Positions 1,851-26,330 of a stretch of DNA of 64,000 nucleotides are shown here, piece by piece. How positions within the stretch are numbered: the first letter of the stretch is position 1; each line of letters opens with the position of its first letter. A program made the position numbers and the translations under genes. The DNA comes from Anadara kagoshimensis (taxonomy: Eukaryota > Mollusca > Bivalvia > Arcoida > Arcidae): contig CM037865.1 in the NCBI GenBank assembly GCA_021292105.1, positions 20,787,428 to 20,851,427 on the forward strand. Direction: 5' to 3'. Below the pieces are notes generated by a model. That model saw only the letters and a list, made by a program, of their open reading frames with translations. It ran no database searches and had not been told where the DNA came from.

Positions 1851-2618
1851 CTGATTACTTATTTATGAATACATTTATTATTAATGAAATTAAATACTTT
1901 TTAATTAACAAAAGAAATCTATTTGGCAAAAGCGTAAATAGATATATGCTAAAATAAACAAACAATCATATCAACAACTTTTAAAATCTTCCATATTCGG
2001 ATTGACCTTGTACTGCAAACTGGACATAAAAACAAAATTGTGTCAAACCTTTTAAGAGCAAATCAATATAAGAATATTTTTCTTGTTTTCTTTATGGAAG
2101 TGGGATTATATTTTGATCTGTACCCATTTACAATATATTTACAAAACACTGGTAAATGGGGTATTTTGTATCCAACACATGGCCAATATTCTTGTGTAAA
2201 TTGTTCTCTAAGGAATAAACATACAATCCAAAAAGGTAAACGTGACATGAAAATTTTTTTTTACTCCGGATTCAATCTATGTCAAGGACTTCATTTTCAC
2301 ATACAGTAATTCAATCTTACACTCTAGAGGCATAATTCCATTAGTATGCTATAGACAATAATTGTGTACATGAAAAATATCGTTGAAAGTGAACAATCAT
2401 GAGTTAGCACATCATTTTCTATGACGTTTAGTCAGAAATGTAAGTACTCAATTGTCTTTATTTTGTTAGAGGTAGTTCTCAGCACCTGAGGCGAAAACTT
2501 TTTCCCGAAATATATTTTCCTGGAAATTTGCATGTTGCACACGTATACATGAGTATTGGCTTTGTTGAATACCAAAAGATAGACATATGATTGGGTGTTT
2601 TCAGTAGCATGTGTTAAA
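1851..2618. other. interval without recognised gene
   Basis: AT-rich. The two overlapping open frames of under 90 codons on opposite strands near 2040-2310 have no recognisable domain and look like chance. Confidence 0.5.
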
Positions 2619-2650
2619 CCTCCCCCCCCCCCCCTTTTTTTTTTTTTTTT
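2619..2650. repeat. poly-C / poly-T junction
   Basis: An uninterrupted run of about 15 C followed directly by about 16 T. It could be a retroelement-related homopolymer or a place where assembly length is unreliable. Confidence 0.9.
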
Positions 2651-2852
2651 AGGTTATCTGAATGGATATATGAACATCTGTAAAATGTATCATATGGAGG
2701 ATGAAAGCTGATATTTCCATATCTTTCAATTCTCTTTTGTTTCAAGAATTTTGATTGGTCAGTTCTTTTTTTATATTTTTGCATGAAAGGATTGGCTCTC
2801 CGTGACGTCATGTAAATATGCACGACCTGAAAGATATTTGAATTCATACGCC

Positions 2853-3238
2853 ATATATTTGTACGGTGGCTGAATAAGGCCATGTGGATTATTTTTTTTA
2901 TCTTGTTCCCTCAAGATAGTATCTCGTTCCCTCAAGTTCGTATCTTGTTCCCTCAAGTTAGTACCTCGTTCCCTCAAGATAGTAACTCGTTCCCTCAAGA
3001 TAGTCATCTCGTTCCCTCAAGTTAGTATCTCGTTCCCTCAAGATAGTATCTCGTTCCCTCAAGATAATATCTCGTTCCCTCAAGTTAGTATCTCGTTCCC
3101 TCAAGATAGTAACTTGTTCCCTCAAGATAGTTATTTGATTCCCTCAAGATAGTATCTCGTTCCCTCAACATAGTATCTTCGTCCCTCGAGTAATGATAAC
3201 TAAATCTGTGTTTCCGGGACGCTTTGTTTGAATGGCTT
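2853..3238 (+). repeat. left arm of 4.75 kb inverted repeat
   Basis: The arm runs from GTACGGTGGCTGAATAAGG through a 21-bp minisatellite to CTGTGTTTCCGGGACGC and GAATGGC. The same three parts occur in reverse order on the opposite strand at 6713-7600. No protein is encoded. Confidence 0.9.
2900..3190 (+). repeat. 21-bp minisatellite, about 13-14 units
   Basis: The unit is approximately CTCGTTCCCTCAAGATAGTAT, with variation at a few positions (CTCG/CTTG, AGATAG/AGTTAG). Because 21 is divisible by three it leaves long open frames in several registers. These are artefacts. Confidence 0.95.
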
Positions 3239-3464
3239 GGCCATTCAAGCTATTGAATGTTTCTTATTTTGAATCCAGGGCGAAGTTATTTCTTTGTATT
3301 TCAATTACATTAAAGATATTATACCCATATTATTCAAAACAGAAACTAAATAAGAGGTCACGCTCCTTTATTGACAGAGTTGAATATTTGAGTCTAAGAC
3401 ATATCTTTAGTGACCAGATATGGTGGGCTTAATATTCATTTGAAGTTATTAATTATACCCGTTT

Positions 3465-3672
3465 AATTTTGCACCACTAGACGGCCGTTTCAGATTACAA
3501 TTCCTCATCAGTAGTGCTTGGATAAAAAACTTGAAGTGGACAGCCATTTTTCAAGATGCTGAAAAACATTATCCAAAGACCCAAAATATAATTTACAAAA
3601 CCAAGCTAGCCTAGGGAAATACTTTGCACGATTGAGCGTACTATAGTTGTTGAGGAATTTCAAAATTTAACA
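3465..3672 (-). mobile_element. hammerhead-bearing repeat module, copy 1
   Basis: A non-coding module of about 200 bp that ends, on the minus strand, in a hammerhead-like core. A diverged copy lies on the plus strand at 14104-14283. Shared blocks include TTGAAATTCCTCAA, GCAAAGTATTT, ATTATATTTTGG and ACTACTGATGAGGAATTGTA. Penelope-like retroelements are known to carry hammerhead ribozymes in their terminal repeats, and a Penelope-like RT fragment lies on the same strand 1 kb upstream. Linking the two is inference. Confidence 0.65.
3471..3517 (-). ncRNA. type I hammerhead ribozyme candidate
   Basis: On the minus strand the core boxes appear in order: CTGATGAG (3504-3511), GAAAC (3487-3491) and the cleavage triplet GTC (3480-3482). 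Stem I forms between GCACTA (3512-3517) and TAGTG/TGC (3471-3479). Stem III is minimal, AC-GGCC-GT. Stem II (GGAATTGTAATCT) is weak: a G-U, a G-C and an A-U pair, then a mismatch. All invariant core bases are present, so self-cleavage is plausible but unproven. Confidence 0.6.
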
Positions 3673-4436
3673 AGTGGATGATTTAGATATAACAGTATAT
3701 TTCTGACAATACCAAATGAAATGTCATGCATAATAGTTATGGGTAATGTTGCTTCATCCACGGAGTTATGATCTGTGTTTTTTTTTTTTTTTTCATTATT
3801 TCAATTCAGGGCATAACATAAAAAAATAATCAAAACAACTTGTGTTATTTGTATAAATCTGTAAGTGTATACTGGTGTCCTCAATGAACATTGGTCAGCA
3901 ACTTACTTGCCAAATATAATAATTATAACCATTTCATTACGTCTTTTCATAGTTACAAGATGCTCCGGGTAGCATCCATCAGCACTATTTCAACTAGTCT
4001 GGGCGAGAATTATAACAATTTTAACTATTTTCAACCTTTAATGATTACAAATAAATGTGCGACATGCATACCAAATACCTCAGTCAATCGCATTATAATG
4101 ACTTTGAGCACACTGGCCGTTGCTCTAACTTCAAAATGCCGAGTGTCTGGCGAAGGAAAGATTTTACATTATAGAGCGGATGCTATATAACCATTGCATG
4201 ATCAAGATTAGAATTATGTTAGTGTAGTTAGAAATATACTCGTATCATCAGAAATATCCGGGTTTTATGGCGTTTAGAGGCAAAAGTTCTCACTAAATGA
4301 ACCAGAACAGGGCAGAGTCTTAACGGCTACGAATAATAAATACCTACTTATGACAATCGTAGAAAAATTACGGATAACTTGAAACAGTCTTAAGTACATC
4401 AGCCATTGTTCTCTACGACAGCAATTTGATTTAATT
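3673..4436. other. interval without recognised gene
   Basis: Non-coding, with a poly-T tract at about 3779-3794. A short block near 4136-4160 resembles the inside of SINE-A on the minus strand (GCCGAGTG...TGGCGAA), suggesting an old fragment. Confidence 0.45.
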
Positions 4437-4465
4437 TGATTTAATAGTGTTTAACGTCCCAGTCA
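4437..4465 (-). mobile_element. displaced 3' tail of SINE-A
   Basis: The minus strand reads GACTGGGACGTTAAACACTA, which is the SINE tail. Its body sits 1 kb away at 5466-5675 in the same orientation. The intervening reverse-transcriptase element therefore appears to have inserted into the SINE tail. Confidence 0.7.
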
Positions 4466-4665
4466 AATCAAAAACAAACATACTAATCCATGTCCGAATC
4501 ATAATCCAGAAGAAAAGTAAACACTTTGGAACTGACAAGTTAGGTTAGACACGTGAACTTCCACCAGGGAAGTGAGGCCGGGTGCTCCGGAAGGGTAAGC
4601 ACCTCCTGTTTAGCTAGCTACACCCGTCACGTGTGTAATCAAAATTGTGTGAAAGGAACATGGAA
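4466..4665 (-). mobile_element. 3' UTR of the Penelope-like element
   Basis: Non-coding sequence immediately after the RT stop codon. It recurs, usually without coding sequence, at 1745, 13318, 53880 (after about 30 codons) and 57925. These five copies define a repeat family dominated by 5'-truncated ends, as expected for target-primed retroelements. Confidence 0.75.
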
Positions 4666-5465
4666 CTATGAGACGTCAAATATATCCAGGGCAATCCTGG
4701 ACACAGAGACATTAAACTTATCAACACTACTGTGATGACGGCCATAAAACTTTTTAGAGCCTTGATAAGCCTAGGCTTGCAATATCCCCGAGTCAACATT
4801 TTATTTGCAAGCAGTCTACTTCGTTGTACAAAGTCCCCGTAGTGGGAACAAGCTCTACCATAGCGTATTAATTGGGAAACAAATACACCATAAGCAGGAG
4901 AAGCAGGTATATTGCTGCATAAAAAAGAAAAGTTGACAATAGAAAAATTGAAGTCATCACGTTTGTCATAAAATTTCAAATGTAGCCTTTCGTGTGCGTC
5001 ATAATTCAGGTATAAGTCTAAAAATGAAGCAGAACTTGAGGAATCAGTCGTGTCTTTTATTTCAAGCTCACTAGGATAGATGACATTTACATAGTCTCCA
5101 AATTTAGGATTGTTAAGAGACAGAACGTCATCTATATATCTGTATGTTGAGTTGAATGATTTGGCGACAGTTTTCTCTCCAGATTTAACAAGGTTCTGCT
5201 TCATAAGAATAAAGAAACAAATCAGCAAGTAATGGTGCACAGTTTGTACCCATTGGTATACCGATTGTTTGCTGAAAAACTATATTACCAAACACAACAA
5301 ATATGTTATTCATCAAAAACTCCAACATTTTGTCGATGGTATCCTCAGTATATTTTTGTTTGGAATCCGTATGATGCTTGACAAAATAACCAGAATCCCT
5401 GTTCAGCACCAGATATTTGTATCTTGGCTTACCGTTTTTTGTAAAAGAAAGACAAAATTATTTCA
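4666..5465 (-). pseudogene. broken reverse transcriptase, Penelope-like type (tentative)
   Basis: This is the C-terminal part of a retroelement reverse transcriptase on the minus strand. Motifs in order are GIPMGTNCAPLLADLF (about 5233-5280), the catalytic YRYIDDVLSL (about 5120-5150), then FYDKRDDFNF, a hydrophobic NIPASPAYGVFVSQLIRYGR block, and a FYGRHH-like motif near 4730. The reading frame shifts near 5190-5240, just before the YIDD motif, and again by one base near 4740, so no intact protein is possible. The 5' end is cut at 5465 by junction with a SINE. No GIY-YIG endonuclease domain remains. Assignment to Penelope-like elements rests on motif style and on the nearby hammerhead. Another non-LTR class is possible. 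Confidence 0.7.
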
Positions 5466-5675
5466 CATATATCGAGACGTCGCCAGCTATAGGTAAAGGT
5501 GCAGAAATTGTGATCTGAGCTATGCGCTGATGGCATTGTGGAGTAAGGGTTCTTTAACGTGCCATGCCTACCGTGACACGGTGACGGGAACTCGGTTTTT
5601 AAAGTCTCACCCGAAAGACCCGTAACTTTCATTTCTCAATGCCGAGTGCTTGGCGTAAGAACAGTCACTACCCAT
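5466..5675 (-). mobile_element. SINE-A body, 5' truncated, split by insertion
   Basis: The reverse complement matches the body of full-length SINE-A copies (GGGTAGTGACTGTTC, GCCAAGCACTC, CATGGCACGTTAAAGAACCC, AGCTGGCGACGTCTCGATA). It lacks the tRNA-like head and stops inside the tail at GTGAAATA, where RT sequence begins. The missing tail is at 4437-4465. Confidence 0.8.
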
Positions 5676-6302
5676 ATTCCTCTTATTTAGTTTTTGTTTT
5701 GAATAACATTGGCATAAGATATTGTTTTTTAATCTTTTTTATTGTCCCAGACATTGAATACGGGATGGTCAAGCAGTGTCAGTGTTTGGGGCCGCTGGGC
5801 TCACTTGCCAGGTAACAATAGGTCAACTTTACATACATAAAACATATGTACATATATACAATTGTATACTGTTTGGGGATTCTAGGGATTGATCTAGATT
5901 TTGTAGTAAGGCACATTTCTGATTATTTGGGGGTCTTATTCAAGTAACTATTAAATCACCAGCGGCGTAGCTAGTAAAGAATAAATGTGCAAGCCCGGAG
6001 CAAAAAGCACTAAACGCACCGTAGACTTCTTCACACTAAGAGGTCCGGGTGCATGTTCCCCAGTTAAATTTTGAAAAATAAGAAGCAATTTGATACGTGT
6101 TTCTATACTCTAAAACAATAGTTTCGTGAGTAAAAAGATTACACAAAAAGATAAAGTTTTTGTTACATTCCACTGAGCCGAATTTTCAGAGCCACATTTT
6201 CATCCTATTTTTTCAAAAGACATATTTTACTTCAAAATCTCAACATTTTTGATAAAAAAATAATGTGCAAGCACATGATTACTGGCTTATATGCACGCTA
6301 CG
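5676..6302. other. interval without recognised gene
   Basis: Non-coding. It includes sequence around 5960-6010 and 6260-6310 (GTGCAAGC..., CGTAGCTAG / CTACGTCACTG) that resembles worn ends of a repeat. Nothing in it can be named. Confidence 0.4.
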
Positions 6303-6527
6303 TCACTGATCACTTAAGCTTTTGAGAGTAAGTTTACTATGATATTTGAAAAATATAGCAATACAATCATTTAAAGAAAGGTTATTAAGATTTAAGATTT
6401 TCAAAAATATCAGAAGAAAACGATCAGTAATGTCAGATGAACAGTTAGTAAGGTCAAGCCAGATTAATTCCTTCATCAAGTAACTAAGTAAATGAAAAAA
6501 ATTAAAGGTCTTGTTTCCAATATTCAT
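6303..6527 (-). pseudogene. short leucine-rich-repeat-like open frame
   Basis: A frame of 74 codons with an LRR-like pattern: WLDLTNCSSDITDRFLL followed about 15 residues later by LNNLSLNDC. This spacing and the L-x-L-x-x-C / ITD signature resemble F-box/LRR (FBXL/AMN1-type) repeats. A possible splice acceptor (pyrimidine-rich, TTTACTTAG) precedes it on the minus strand. No neighbouring exon is visible and the region is full of retroelements, so a decayed gene fragment is likelier than a live exon. Chance resemblance in AT-rich DNA is also possible. Confidence 0.25.
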
Positions 6528-6772
6528 AATAATATCTTTTTCAGTATTTACAATTTTTAATACACATTTTTTTCAGTTTTGTCTTGGTTTTTGTTTTTTA
6601 ATCTTTATATAATATAATTGAAATACAATAGAAAAGAATAACTTTGCCTTTGATTCAAAATAAGAAACATGTAACAGCTTGAATAGATCAGCTATCTCCT
6701 CACTCGATCTCCGCCATTCAAACACCGCGTCCCGGAAACACAGATTAATTTATCATTATCTCGAGAGAACGA

Positions 6773-7138
6773 GGGTTTGTTGGTTGGTTAATTGAATCTT
6801 GTTTAATGTCGCATCAGCAGTTTTTCAGCTATTCGCGACGAGAACTAATGTATTAATCTCTATGGAATTATCAATAAACAATTCCGTGTATGCATATGAA
6901 TTATGGTATGGTCTGTCTTGTACTTGCGCGCACGCAGGGCGACTTTAACGTGCTAGCTCACAGATTCAATTCGCCGCAGAGAAGCGTGTCACTCCCCAGT
7001 CCATTATACAGATACCAATAAAGGCCAACGGCAAAGACAATTCACTTTCCCACTTGTGGTCTGAGCGGGACTCGAACTCACAGCGGTGAGAGACCCTGAA
7101 TTTGAAGACTAACGTCTTATCCATTAGGCCACCGCGGC
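6773..7138 (-). mobile_element. SINE-C, tRNA-derived
   Basis: On the minus strand the head has an excellent Pol III A box (TGGCCTAATGG, 7121-7131) and B box (GAGTTCGAGTCC, 7068-7079). The tail is at the other end (ATTAACCAACCAACA). A second copy in the same orientation is at 57455-57828. TCTCGAG(A/G)GAACGAG on both sides is a probable 14-15 bp target duplication, although the flank is itself minisatellite. The tRNA-like part lacks an acceptor stem pair, so it is not a tRNA gene. Confidence 0.85.
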
Positions 7139-7556
7139 CTCTCGAGGGAACGAGATTCTAACTTGAGGGAACAAGATACTATCTTGAGGGAACAAGTTAT
7201 TATCTTGAGGGAACAAGTAACTATCTTGAGGGAACGAGATACTGACTTTAAGGAACAAGTTACTATCTTGAGGGAATGAGATATTATCTTGAGGGAACAA
7301 GTTACTATCTTGAGGGAACGAGATACTAACTTGAGGGAATGAGATATTATCTTGAGGGAACAAGTTACCATCTTGAGGGAACGAGATACTAACTTGAGGG
7401 AACGAGATGACTATCTTGAGGGAACGAGTTACTATCTTGAGGGAACGAGATACTAACTTGAGGGAACGAGATATTATCTTGAGGGAACGAGATACTAACT
7501 TGAGGGAACAAGATACTATCTTGAGGGAACGAGATATTAACTTGAGGGAACGAGAT
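7139..7556 (-). repeat. 21-bp minisatellite, about 20 units
   Basis: The unit CTTGAGGGAACGAGATACTAA is the reverse complement of the array at 2900-3190. Units alternate AACTTGAG and ATCTTGAG, and some carry ACAAG for ACGAG. Confidence 0.95.
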
Positions 7557-7600
7557 AAAAAATATTTTTTACATGGCCTTATTCAGCCACCGTATATTTG

Positions 7601-12790: not shown

Positions 12791-13018
12791 TACAGCACAG
12801 ACCTGTCGAAAGTTTAACACTAAGTTAACAAATTGATGCCGATCGCGCTAAGTGACAGCTTATCTAGGACGGTCATTCGTTAGGTAAATTTTGACAGTTG
12901 TTCAGTATTAGCTGACAGCTTTATACTCACAAACTATCCATATAACGGCCACTTGACAGCCGAACATCGACTTCTTTTCGTGAGCTCAGTGTTAAACATT
13001 CGACAGGTCTGTACTGTT
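12791..13018. mobile_element. TIR family 1 element
   Basis: It starts TACAGCACAGACCTGTCGAA and ends CATTCGACAGGTCTGTACTG, showing the full TIR. It is only 218 bp from the preceding copy. Confidence 0.9.
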
Positions 13019-13218
13019 TGTAGATTAAGGTTACTGATGATAGGGAGGATGTCGTGTCTAACAAGTGTATGTTTAGACACGTCGCTAGGTTAATTGTGCC
13101 ATTAAGAACACATTATCCTGATTGTAGACAAATTGTGATGACATTCAAGAAGCATGTAGAGCACCAGCATGCTGCCTGCTTTTGTGTCTAATAAATTGAA
13201 CGTATTCGCTTGATGAAT

Positions 13219-13305
13219 ACAGTAATACCTAAATATAAAGACCACCCATAGGTTGTAGAGAAACTGGGATCTATAATCATGTGGTCTTCACTGATGGTTC
13301 TGTAT
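13219..13305. mobile_element. short TIR family 4 element
   Basis: An 87-bp deletion derivative bounded by TACAGTAATACC and GGTTCTGTA, with the internal words AAAGACCACC and GTGGTCTTCA. It is related to elements at 36529, 39120 and 60620. Confidence 0.55.
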
Positions 13306-13317
13306 AAAAATTATCCT

Positions 13318-13500
13318 GGGTATATTTGACGTCCCATAGTTCCATGTTCCTGTCATTCATAATTTTAATTTCACACTTGTCGGGTAAAGCTGTCTAGACA
13401 TGAGTTGCTTACCCTTCCAGAACACCCGGCCTTACTTCTCAACTGAAGGTTATCGTTTTTAACTAAATTTGCCAGTTTTCATTTTTTACTTTGCCTTTGG
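13318..13500 (+). mobile_element. 3' end of the Penelope-like element
   Basis: It begins with the last codons and stop (TATTTGACGTCCCATAG) and continues into the 3' UTR (TTCCATGTTCC, TGCTTACCCTTCCAGAACAC). It is a 5'-truncated copy whose far end has been amplified into the following triplicate. Confidence 0.75.
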
Positions 13501-13613
13501 GATTGTGGTTTAGACATGTATTTGGTTATATAAAATTGGGATTGTGGTTTAGACATGTATTTGGTTATATAAAATTGGGATTGTGGTTTAGACATGTATT
13601 TGGTCATATAAAA
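13500..13613 (+). repeat. 39-bp triplicate derived from retroelement tail
   Basis: GGATTGTGGTTTAGACATGT starts near 13500, 13539 and 13578, giving an exact 39-bp period with one difference in the last unit. The unit corresponds to the 3' end of the element (GATTGTGATTCGGACATGG in other copies). Confidence 0.9.
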
Positions 13614-14103
13614 CATCAGTTACTATTTTGCTTTGATTTTTGGCCGATGACGTCATAATGGACAAGGTATTTCAGATGGATAAGGTTATCTCTAACAGAA
13701 CTTGTTTTGGCAGCAAAATAATAGGAAATTCGACAGCATGATTATACAGGGGTTGTTTTATCTATTGACTTACTGGAGCAATAATACTGTCTAAAGTATC
13801 CTCCATATATGCAGCAAAGGTCTGGCGATAATAATTAATAGTTGAGGAATTGCTGCGTTTGGCCGAGATATTGATAACATGTAAGCGAAAAGCTACCAAG
13901 GTATATGTATATATAGCACCTGTCAATAGATATAGATAACGAGGGGACAAGAAAAGATACCGGTTCGGAACTTATTATAACATTAACTTAAAACCCTGAG
14001 CCGGTGGTGGCTGGTTCCCCGAGGATATCACAAACTCATTAGGCAATAACTGTGTATTATTATCAGAGAGATACTATTGTCTAAATTTGCAGCTAGGTAA
14101 CAT
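13614..14103. other. interval without recognised gene
   Basis: Non-coding. It contains one perfect CRE octamer TGACGTCA at 13648-13655. Confidence 0.5.
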
Positions 14104-14283
14104 TTGAAATTCCTCAAAAACTCATGCAAAGTATTTACTTAGCTAAATTTGGTAAAATATATTTTGGTCCTTTTGGGTATCTTTTCAACGTCTTGAAAGC
14201 AGTTTTGACCCAAGTACTACTGATGAGGAATTGTATCTCGGAACGCTCGTCTAGTGCTGTTAAATTAAAACTTGTTTAGTATG
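14104..14283 (+). mobile_element. hammerhead-bearing repeat module, copy 2 (decayed)
   Basis: A diverged plus-strand copy of the module at 3465-3672. The hammerhead region (14214-14257) keeps CTGATGAG, GTC and a 6-bp stem I (GTACTA/TAGTGC) but reads GGAAC where GAAAC is required, so the core is probably dead. Confidence 0.6.
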
Positions 14284-14289
14284 TAATTT

Positions 14290-14329
14290 GTTGGCTTAGT
14301 GTTAAACATTCAACATGGCTGCACTGTAA
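14290..14329. mobile_element. TIR family 1, right end only
   Basis: TTGGCTTAGTGTTAAACATT followed by CAACATGGCTGCACTGTA. No matching left end is visible. Confidence 0.6.
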
Positions 14330-15783
14330 TTGTTGCATTAGACTTAGAGTAACTTAATAATCAATTGTAGTTTTAAAGCAAAATATATTTACATGAAACT
14401 GACATATTGAAGTTGGGTTACTTCCAAAAAAGAACTTTTCAATAAATGGAAAAATACAATGTATAAAATATTTTTATAAGTGCAAAACCGTTTGAAATAT
14501 TGAAGTTTGAAATAAAGCCAAGAAACGATCTATTCAATAAAGAAAAAGATTATATTATTATTTTTGTCTAAACTTTAAATCCTTGATCATCTTTTCTAAA
14601 CAACAACATGTTATATGACTTGTAATATTTGAAATAAAACGAAGAAAGGATCTAATCAATATAAGATTTTAAAATTTTTTGCTATAGTAATCTTTTCTTA
14701 ACACCAATCCAACATACATGTCATGATAATATGTGATATTTGAGTTACACCATATCATATCAATAAAGATCCCATCACTAGTTGTTGGTTCAGATTTTGC
14801 AATATTTTTAAATGTTCCTCTGTCTGCTTCTATTCAGAATATGTCAAATTTTGTGCGTTTCAAAAAATATTTACAGATAATGTTCTAAAGTATCGTCTTA
14901 TATTTGAATACAAAAATTTACGCATAAGAACATAATTTTTGGACAATATATGTGCGTAATGCAAGCGGGAGACATACGATGTGTAACGAGCATTACGTAA
15001 ATGTTTCCTTCAAATATATGTTAAAAATTGAATCGTTATTGTTTAAATCAATATGTTATCCATCCCCTTGGATCGTCTATTTTAAACGCCTCCAGTTGGT
15101 TTTCCATTGTTCACGTATAAACAGTATAAATTAGACTGCGTGTTCTGCGTGCATAATACACACACGAGAAAATTAATTTCTTTGACAATAGATGACATCA
15201 AGCAAGGGTAAAAAAAAAGTTTACCATGTATTATAAAAATGTAAAATATCGGTGTTGTTAATTCCGTTGTGACCAATAAAGGGTAAGGTGGCGTCATTGA
15301 AAACAGCCTAAGATGCTGTTTATGAGGACTTTATAAACACCCTACCTTCAGATCGCGAACAATCTATACGAACAACAAGTGTGGGTAAGAAAAACGTCTA
15401 CCAATTACTTAATTGCAACATTGGGTCGTTATTGTGTTAATTTTGCGTGTTAATTCAAACCATTAGTCTATCAATTAAAATTCTTTTAGGTGTTGCTTCA
15501 CTGTACACTTTTATTCACTATACATCATATTATGTGCGTATGAATGAAGTTCTCACCTATAATTTTCTAAAGGGGCGTCCTATATCCGAGATCAAAAATA
15601 TACACAAGACCAAAATACATGGGCTTTAACAAAAAGTGAGACAAGTACTTAAAATGTACTTTCAGAACACATAAATATAAAATTCGATAGATTTTGTATA
15701 ATTCTTGTGCTGGTTTAGCCATATAGATAAAAAATACACGGGCAGCCAAATTAATATTTAAAAGAACATAAACTTTATTGTTA
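14330..15783. other. interval without recognised gene
   Basis: Very AT-rich. From 14455 to 14760 a loose repeat (TTTGAAATAAA(G/A)C(C/G)AAG(A/G)AA...GATC(T)ATTCAATA) recurs about every 120 bp. No coding signal is visible. Confidence 0.45.
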
Positions 15784-23149: not shown

Positions 23150-25435
23150 TATAAGCTAATGGTTCTCAACAGTAGAGATATAGAAGGTGCAAATGTAAGG
23201 CATTACATAAGTATTACATAAAACATACACATGTACGTCTTAGGTGAAAACAAAAGAGCGAAGATAAATTGGAATAATTTTTGTCGGCAATATTTTCAGA
23301 ATTTCAAGTTCAACGACTCCACCTGTTACCAAATCACACGACCAAATATAATCAAACTACGTAAATCTTTGTTACCAAACTAAAACACATTGTTACCAAA
23401 ACACGCCACCTATTGTCATCAAACCAAGGAACCACTACGCAATTCATTGTTTCCAAATCACGCAATTCATTGTCACCAATCCACGCAGACAAAGTCAACA
23501 AACACGATCAGTATGATATTCAAAATTGACACAACAATATCTTATACTAATAAATATATATAAATATTGTACGCCATCGCTGACTACAAACTTTAGCGAT
23601 TAGAAAAGAAATACAATGCGTCCTGCGTAATATAGACTAATGTTTTCTAAAAGAATAGATATAGAAGGTGTCAATGTAAGGAGCGAGTATTACATAAATA
23701 TAACATAAAACATACGTCATAGGTGAAAACAAAAGATCGAAGCTTGATAATTAGTATAATTTTTGTCAGCAATATTATCTGGACTTTCAAGTTCAAAGAA
23801 TCCTCATGTTACCTATTCACGCGACCCAATATAATCAAACCACACAAATCATTTTTACCAAACCACTGCCCTTTGTTACCAAACCACGCAACCAAATATA
23901 ATTAAACCACACAAATCATTTTTAAAAAACCACAGCCCTTTGTTACCAAACCACGCAACCCAATATAATCGAACCACGCAAATCATTGTTACCAACCACA
24001 ACCCTTTGTTATCAAACCACGCAACCCAATGTAATCAAACCACGCAAATCATTGTTACCAAACCACAGCCTTTTGTTACCAAACCACGCAACCAAATATA
24101 ATCAAACCACGCAAATCATTGTTACCAACCACAACCCTTTGTTATCAAACCACGCAACCCAATATAATCAAACCACACAAAGCATTGTTACCAAACCACA
24201 ACCCTTTGTTACAAACCACACAACCCAATATAATCAAACCACGCAAATCATTGTTACCAAACCACAACCTTTTGTTACCAAACCACGCAATCCAATGTAA
24301 TCAAACTACGCAAATCATTGTTACCAAACCACAGCCTTTTGTTACCAAACCACGCAACCCAATGTAATCACACTACGCAAATCATTGTTACCAAACCACA
24401 GCCTTTTGTTACCAAACCACGCAACCCAATGTAATCAAACTTCGCAAATCATTGTTACCAAACCACAACTTTTTGTTACCAAACCACGCAACCCAATGTA
24501 AGCAAACCACGCAAATCTTTGTTACCAAGCCACGCCACCTATTGTCATCAAACCACGGAACCACTATGCAATTCATTGTTTCCAAACCACGCAACTCATT
24601 GGCACCGAACTACGCAAACAATGTCACCAAACCACGCAGACAAAGTCACCAAACACGATCAGTATGATATTCAAAATCAGCAGTACATGTATTTTATACC
24701 AATAATATTGTACTCACTCACTGACTACAAACTTAGGCGAAAAAAGAAATACAAATGCGTCCTGCATAATATAGACTAATGTTTTCTAAAAGAATAGATA
24801 TAGAAGGTGTCAATGTAAGGAGCGAGTATTACATAAAAATTACATAAAACATACGCCTTAGACAAACAAAAGATCGAAGCTTGATAATTGTTGTCAGCAA
24901 TATTATCAGGACTTTCAAGTTCAACGAATCCTCATGTTACCAAATCACGCGATCCAATATAATCAAACCACGCAAATCTTTGTTACAAAACCACGCCACC
25001 TGTTGCAATCATCCCACGTGATCACTACGCAATTCATTGTTTCCAAACCTCGCAACTCATTGTCCTCAAACCAGACAGACAATGTCACCAAACCAGGCAG
25101 ACAATGTCACCAAGCACGATCAGTATATATTCGAAATCAGCAGTACATGTATCTTATACCAATAAATATTGTAAGCACTCACTGACTACAAACTTGGGCG
25201 ATTATAAAAGAAATACAAATGCATAATATAAGCTAATGTTTCCCAACAGTATAGATAGCGAAGGTGCTAATGTTAGGAGCGAACATTACATAAATATTAC
25301 ATAAAACACAATTGTAAGGTATAAATAATACATAAAACATAACCTTTGGTGAAAACAATAGAGCCAAGCTTGATAAATTGGTTTCAAATTTGTCAGCCAG
25401 ATTGTCAAGACTTACAAGTTCAACAAATCCCAATA
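23150..25435. repeat. higher-order satellite, about 460-480 bp unit, 3.5 copies
   Basis: Units begin at ATA(A/G)(G/A)CTAATG near 23150, 23630, 24770 and 25228. Each includes ATAGATATAGAAGGTG, TTACATAAAACATA, a GTTACCAAA(C/T)CACG block and AACACGATCAGTATGATATT. The second unit is stretched to about 1140 bp by an internal 67-bp array. Multi-frame open readings (LLPNHATQ-type) follow from the repeats. Confidence 0.9.
23820..24520. repeat. 67-bp tandem array, about 10 units
   Basis: The unit contains CGCAACCCAATATAATCAAA, CGCAAATCATTGTTACCAAA and a CCACAACCCTTTGTTACC block. It carries an internal subrepeat (TTACCAAACCAC). There are no spacers of unique sequence, so it is not a CRISPR array. Confidence 0.95.
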
Positions 25436-26330
25436 TTTTAAATTTTTTGTCGGTTCTTCTGGTGTGTTACATTAATAACGATTAAAGCATGCCCCCCAGT
25501 GTATGAAATCTTACAAAATATACAAAACATCACAGTTTATTGACCTTATAGTATGTACGGAGGCTCATAAGTCCCAATTTGTTTTGTTTTTTTTATAAAA
25601 AACGGTTATTTTAATGAAAAAGTTGCAAACTACAGTAAAGATTATAATATACGTAAATTGTTCGCGTTAATTAAATTTCAATTGATTTCAATTAATAAAA
25701 ATCACCATTTCGAAATATTTTAATATTTTTAACGTCATCAGATAATGGTAAGTACAGTTGCGAGTGATTCTTATAAAAATAGAGTATTTCTGAAGTTCAA
25801 TGTTTGATTATTGCTTATTGTTACTTTTGCGACAATAAAACGAACGCCATTGTTTCCAAAACTTCACTAGATAGCTTTTTAAAATCTTAAAATATAAAGA
25901 TAGAATTAAAAGAAAAACAAAAGAAAGAAAAAGACAAAATTAAAATCGCTGAGTAGTGTATCAACGCTATATAAATTGCACAAATAAGCTACCATATACA
26001 GTTCGATTGAAGAGGCTGCAAGGTGCTCGAAAGTTAATATTCTATGTGAAACCTTTTAATCAGAAACAATGTTCAATAGGTGCTTAAACACGAAACTAAT
26101 ATGTACCTCACTTTCTATCAGTATATGGTATTAATTTAGATTTAAAAAAGCAATTTGCTGAAGAACATGTTTAGAATATGTAGAATATTTTAAATTAATG
26201 TTTAAATTAAAATATGCATTACAAGCTCATCCATATACTGGTTCAAAGACATGTGCATAGTGTTAACAGTAAATGTTATATTAAAAGAAAGAAATATTGA
26301 CCCTTTGGGATTGGCACTTTAAGCTATGTA
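25436..26330. other. interval without recognised gene
   Basis: Non-coding AT-rich sequence with no match elsewhere in the window. Confidence 0.5.

Follow-up and report, generated by a model that had tools for sequence, protein, structure and literature searches.

The hammerhead-like sequence on the minus strand at 3471-3517 of the window, by which we mean the whole 64,000-nt stretch of Anadara kagoshimensis DNA analyzed here, is a real but decayed hammerhead, a relic rather than an intact ribozyme. It is very probably the hammerhead of a non-LTR retrozyme of about 330 nt that entered an ancestral DNA transposon and was then multiplied as a passenger. Stand-alone copies of the same retrozyme are present elsewhere in the genome, including a second copy in the window. 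They constitute a new family among the animal non-LTR retrozymes, a known kind of element (Cervera and de la Pena 2020, PMC7229834).

The hammerhead motif and its decay

3471..3517, minus strand: relic of a type I hammerhead with an intact core (CTGATGA/GAAA/TC) and mismatches in stem I (G.G) and stem II (A.A)

Read directly from the minus strand, positions 3517-3471 are GCACTA-CTGATGA-GGAATTGTAATCT-GAAA-CGGCCG-TC-TAGTGGTGC. The elements CTGATGA, GAAA and GTC occur in hammerhead order, just as the original prediction had reported for this place and strand, and the type I core (CUGANGA, GAAA and UH, in that order) is complete. Cleavage is predicted 3' of the C at 3480. A descriptor of this arrangement (CTGATGA, GAAA, stem III of at least 2 bp, C17, stem I of at least 5 bp and stem II of at least 3 bp) matched random sequence with the dinucleotide make-up of the window 12 times in 1.54 Gb, or about 0.001 times per window when both strands are considered. 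Because so few matches are expected by chance, the motif merited closer study. Among the sites listed for the real window, it was the one with a stem I of at least 4 bp.

The stems are less well preserved than the core letters. Stem III has 2 bp and a palindromic GGCC loop, which is the minimal stem that had been described, whereas the supposedly good stem I meets a G.G mismatch after 5 bp. Stem II is composed of G.U, G-C and A-U pairs, an A.A mismatch and a U-A pair. A nearest-neighbor energy model, in which tertiary contacts play no part, favors a shifted hairpin (-15.0 kcal/mol) as the fold of lowest energy and puts the hammerhead at +2.3, a gap of about 17.

The Rfam model Hammerhead_1 (RF00163), applied to 91 bases around the motif, yielded 19.0 bits in a shifted register, so the covariance check proposed for the motif came out below the gathering cut-off of 34. 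The score was also under this threshold for a copy at another fetched locus (L013, 18.9 bits) and for a stand-alone copy (L055, 28.1 bits). Rfam listed no hammerhead for window positions 2500-4500 at E values up to 5, nor for nine fetched loci given whole at E values up to 10, and no Rfam match within the window attains its cut-off. The motif had been called intact-looking, a description that does not survive the flaws in stems I and II, the preferred shifted fold and the low Rfam score. The embedded copy is probably inactive or nearly so. The covariance model R1, which we built from sequences outside the window and the transposon, scored 68.8 bits at 3524-3465. Moreover, a hammerhead origin is supported despite the sub-threshold Rfam score because homology to a repeated stand-alone element provides independent evidence.

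A stand-alone retrozyme family

3452..3712, minus strand: retrozyme-derived segment, 5'-truncated (profile 61-314 of 322), nhmmer E 8.5e-45
13985..14288, plus strand: second copy of the retrozyme, roughly one unit long and carrying the 3' end typical of the family; nhmmer E 3.4e-83 at 13993-14287
14212..14258, plus strand: hammerhead relic of the second copy; GAAA changed to GGAA, and the cleavage site would follow 14251

Two short matches, one beside a transposon copy (L012, 8406-8491) and one in the window itself (14203-14288), share the hammerhead block and are free of transposon ends. When the L012 copy was used as a query, at least 40 matches at 97-100% identity were found on 15 contigs, the query included, together with one weaker match (2018 first-look candidates). 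The second copy in the window likewise returned at least 40 matches, itself among them (1684 candidates). Twelve of the first 41 matches and 20 of the second 40 were fetched as loci. Tandem units are present at six of these (L055, L058, L061, L071, L077 and L078), and the hammerhead-to-hammerhead length is 339 nt in L061, where GC is 0.33, and 328 nt in L055. No tandem arrangement is found in the embedded segment of the window.

The hammerhead of L055 has stems I, II and III of 7, 5 and 2 bp. Its lowest-energy fold (-13.4 kcal/mol) contains stems I and II, and the complete hammerhead is predicted at -8.9 kcal/mol. RF00163 aligns this well-preserved hammerhead in the correct register at E 2e-05, although its 28.1 bits are still under the cut-off. 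The proposal that the window motif derives from the type I hammerhead of some retroelement is therefore borne out by stand-alone copies in the same genome.

A window-free profile built from eight stand-alone units matches the window at 13994-14287 (E 1.8e-67) and at 3712-3452 (E 3.5e-45), and the next match has an E value of 7.7. R1 finds the same two places, with 74.7 bits at 14207-14266 in addition to the score given above, and no other at E values up to 10. Because both models match it, the segment within the transposon is a 5'-truncated copy of the retrozyme. Window positions 3711-3480 and the L061 unit are 74.5% identical over 235 columns. Upstream of the segment in common, the transposon body resembles the second copy no more than shuffled sequence does (285; 30 shuffles gave a mean of 250 and a maximum of 301).

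Two loci hold more complicated arrangements. At one (L012:8403-8487), the 3' end of a stand-alone retrozyme is the site at which a transposon copy has inserted. At the other (L062:569-736), two retrozyme copies of unequal divergence are inverted and joined at their 3' ends.

The host DNA transposon

2862..7593, no strand assigned: host DNA transposon, 4.7 kb, bounded by terminal inverted repeats; close to each end lie 21-bp tandem repeats, those of one end inverted relative to those of the other
2862..2885, plus strand: left terminal inverted repeat TACGGTGGCTGAATAAGGCCATGT, also at other loci
7570..7593, minus strand: right terminal inverted repeat; 24-bp inverted ends
2856..2861, plus strand: target site duplication TATTTG, left copy (direct reading)
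7594..7599, plus strand: target site duplication TATTTG, right copy (direct reading)

The embedded segment lies within a TIR DNA transposon, which has inverted terminal repeats and a target duplication of fixed length. The genome (1.115 Gb, 36 contigs) was searched with window positions 3400-3600, giving at least 40 matches at 87-100% identity, of which the window is one (2177 first-look candidates). The hammerhead motif recurs in other copies of the 4.7-kb element. Allowing up to four mismatches, the transposon end TACGGTGGCTGAATAAGGCCATGT is present in 32 of the 34 loci fetched; it was not found in L025 and L040. The window copy has an exact 6-bp target duplication, and so do four (L045, L046, L048 and L050) of the seven copies in L044-L050 for which both ends were read. 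The duplication is not exact in L044, L047 and L049, and those of L011, L012 and L043 were left out of the scoring.

The 24-bp inverted ends and 6-bp target duplication resemble those of non-autonomous TIR DNA transposons, and the host differs from these in the arrays of inverted 21-bp tandem repeats inside both of its ends. Further inverted repeats lie beside these arrays, where window positions 3191-3357 pair with 5679-5723 and 6610-6772. This additional pairing suggests that the transposon may have a layered or composite origin. The transposon has also inserted into itself, with one copy nested in another at L009, L013, L018 and L031. In the right part of the element, at 7020-7140, tRNA-like box letters can be made out by eye, and this region is perhaps a SINE.

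The reverse transcriptase fragment

~4467..5452, minus strand: RT fragment, presumably Penelope-like; a later insertion in some transposon copies, not the ribozyme's element

A fragment of a reverse transcriptase (RT) had been noted 1.1 kb upstream of the hammerhead on the same strand, and open reading frames are indeed found there on the minus strand, at 4614-5279 and 5185-5457. Library support for an RT is weak. The signals in these frames are RVT_1 at E 0.079 and telomerase RT at E 0.1; the longer frame has no Pfam match, and neither has an NCBIfam match. We tentatively take the fragment to be Penelope-like on the basis of its motifs.

Ten loci were compared for the presence of this fragment. 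It is absent from L012, L044, L046, L048, L049, L050 and one of two L043 copies, in which position 4466 is joined directly to 5450-5458. The junction letters of these empty sites were read in L046, L048, L049 and L050. The fragment is carried by L011, L045, L047 and the other L043 copy. The hammerhead segment occurs in transposon copies with the fragment and in copies without it, and sequence from window position 4467 onward is also found outside the transposon (L047, 7967-8203). Because empty sites are present in transposon copies that have the hammerhead segment, the RT fragment was inserted later and does not belong to the element of the ribozyme.

Constraint and covariation

Diversity was computed for 36 transposon copies, the one in the window and 35 others, that were picked by their similarity to window positions 3400-3600 and had 700 or more aligned bases. 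Nucleotide diversity (pi) is 0.064 in the hammerhead core and 0.043-0.049 in its surroundings. Of 226 segments of 47 nt, 76% equal or surpass the hammerhead in conservation. Twenty-one of the 36 copies retain an intact core, and six copies that cluster in the tree (L026, L028, L029, L030, L032 and L033) carry a change of G8 to A. The sampled transposon copies thus give no sign that the hammerhead is maintained, as judged from their diversity.

Among 21 stand-alone units, pi is 0.015 in the core, 0.048 in the hammerhead, 0.049 in the 3' tail and 0.079 in the 5' body. The difference between core and body is inflated because the copies were found with queries that hold the hammerhead and tail. 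The tail was part of the queries as well, and yet the core is less diverse than the tail. Full hammerheads retain an intact core in 30 of 37 cases, even though 20 of the loci were fetched with the second copy in the window, which itself has GGAA in its core and is among the seven changed.

Covariation was assessed with 25 distinct sequences, in which two pairs have changes on both sides, a number reached by 105 of 500 shuffles. The covariation score was reached by 22 of 500 shuffles, and the paired cells by 27 of 500. In a mixed set, one such pair was found and nothing exceeded the shuffles.

Alternative explanations

A motif of this kind might be a chance match in a DNA transposon that was never a ribozyme. 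The Rfam score under the cut-off, the competing fold, the lack of constraint among transposon copies and the weak covariation would all agree with such an origin. Against these points stand about 260 nt of homology to a family in which a better-formed hammerhead recurs at unit-length repeats, and the expectation of 0.001 matches per window. A chance origin was rejected on account of the low expectation and the homology to a stand-alone tandem family, and we regard it as extremely improbable. Alternatively, the embedded hammerhead could work and serve the DNA transposon, for example by cutting read-through transcripts. The core letters are intact in more than half of the copies, the window copy included, but diversity in the core is not below that of the flanks, the G8 change is common to a whole cluster of copies, and the stems are weakened. 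A working ribozyme kept by the transposon is very unlikely, and it was rejected in view of these stems, the competing fold and a core no less variable than its flanks.

A third possibility is that the hammerhead belongs to the neighboring Penelope-like element, whose transcript it would process. The two lie on the same strand only 1.1 kb apart, and Penelope-like elements carry minimal type I hammerheads (PMC7761336). This link, which the original prediction had drawn, is contradicted by the transposon copies that keep the hammerhead segment and lack the RT fragment, and by the occurrence outside the transposon of sequence beginning at 4467. The hammerhead is not located within an RT-carrying element, since the RT fragment is a separate insertion. 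Ownership of the motif by a Penelope-like element is therefore contradicted by the empty sites, and we give it almost no weight.

How retrozyme copies end

The 3' ends of retrozyme copies were surveyed with 53 loose matches in 33 sequences (L051-L082 and window positions 13001-15500). The end falls exactly 37 nt past the cleavage site in 36 of the 53, among which 30 are without the start of a next unit behind them and six have it. Twelve matches ending at 24 nt were set aside as spurious, since they lie on the strand opposite to the hammerhead of their locus, and the remaining five end at 38, 43 or 44 nt. The 37-nt rule has exceptions because L058 (38) and L062 (43) are real copies with small insertions. 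At the other end, the homology of the main copies begins anywhere from profile position 1 to 241 among the 20 loci fetched with the second query. Stretches of 4-8 nt are present in common at 11 of 13 junctions examined and at two there are none; these stretches are too short to prove target duplications.

Copies that have a fixed 3' end but are truncated to varying extents at the 5' end suggest that reverse transcription begins at a set position and frequently stops short. The 30 copies that end exactly 37 nt past the cut therefore mark the probable start of reverse transcription. In a Penelope-like element of Anolis, the genomic “tail” is set by the start of reverse transcription, which lies at an internal site of the RNA downstream of the hammerhead cut (PMC11167929). 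The ends at 37 nt are directly comparable with the mapped start sites of that enzyme (PMC11167929), and because the fixed end resembles a Penelope tail, the identity of the mobilizing enzyme becomes testable. In the same study, insertion in vitro went ahead even when the hammerhead was dead, and the hammerhead of the Penelope element cleaved only with protein (PMC11167929). It follows that a hammerhead is not necessarily a direct driver of mobility.

Penelope-like elements with minimal hammerheads resemble the family in their type I hammerhead (PMC11167929, PMC7761336 and PMC6155905) and in having DNA copies that end downstream of the cleavage site, as would a tail from an internal RT start (PMC11167929). 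The usual junction of the family has AATT, and the Penelope-like enzyme prefers ATT (PMC11167929). The retrozyme unit differs in having no RT. The distances are also dissimilar: against the 37 nt of the family, the Anolis element has its cut site 26 bp and its commonest RT start 111-118 bp into the ORF (PMC11167929).

Placement of the family and a possible route

The stand-alone family has the features of animal non-LTR retrozymes: a length within 170-400 nt, low GC and one type I hammerhead per unit. Compared with those described in PMC7229834, its units are putatively noncoding, lie inside the reported size range and, in L061, have the GC content given above; they are in tandem at some loci, have a weak stem III and exist as many dispersed copies. 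Differences from that account are also evident. Many sampled copies are single, 5'-truncated and end 37 nt past the cleavage site, and one version of the family rides in a DNA transposon. Other retrozymes are described as having a stable self-paired circular fold (PMC7229834), whereas the predicted circular monomer of L055, the sole unit compared, is no stabler than 50 shuffles (-56.4 against a mean of -54.4, s.d. 4.8). The core and three-stem layout are those of RF00163, although the L055 and window copies score below its cut-off and the window copy does so in a shifted register.

A sequence of events consistent with these observations can be outlined. Transcripts of stand-alone retrozymes would cut themselves at each hammerhead, and the resulting monomers would be circularized by a host ligase. 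A helper RT would then copy the circles from a fixed internal site. One retrozyme copy very probably joined the ancestor of the DNA transposon, by insertion or by recombination, and the transposon has multiplied the captured copy since. The embedded hammerhead is probably a passenger because the retrozyme copy sits inside another jumping element and is copied along with it. A literature search found no retrozyme carried by a DNA transposon in the titles and abstract openings covered, which is no proof of absence.

Candidate mobilizers of animal retrozymes are LINEs or Penelope-like elements, the latter being a strong candidate (PMC7229834). We tentatively propose, with somewhat more doubt than conviction, that a Penelope-type RT starting 37 nt past the hammerhead cut mobilizes the family and gives it a Penelope-like tail, and that retrozymes can escape into cut-and-paste transposons so that hammerhead relics are spread by a DNA route. 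Isolated hammerhead motifs in animal genomes may accordingly be nonfunctional, some of them being relics that an unrelated DNA transposon has spread.

Elsewhere in the window, positions 23926-24779 hold repetitive reading frames (YQTTQ-like) in a stretch of strongly negative GC skew (-0.29 at 24001-26000). This region is probably a tandem repeat.
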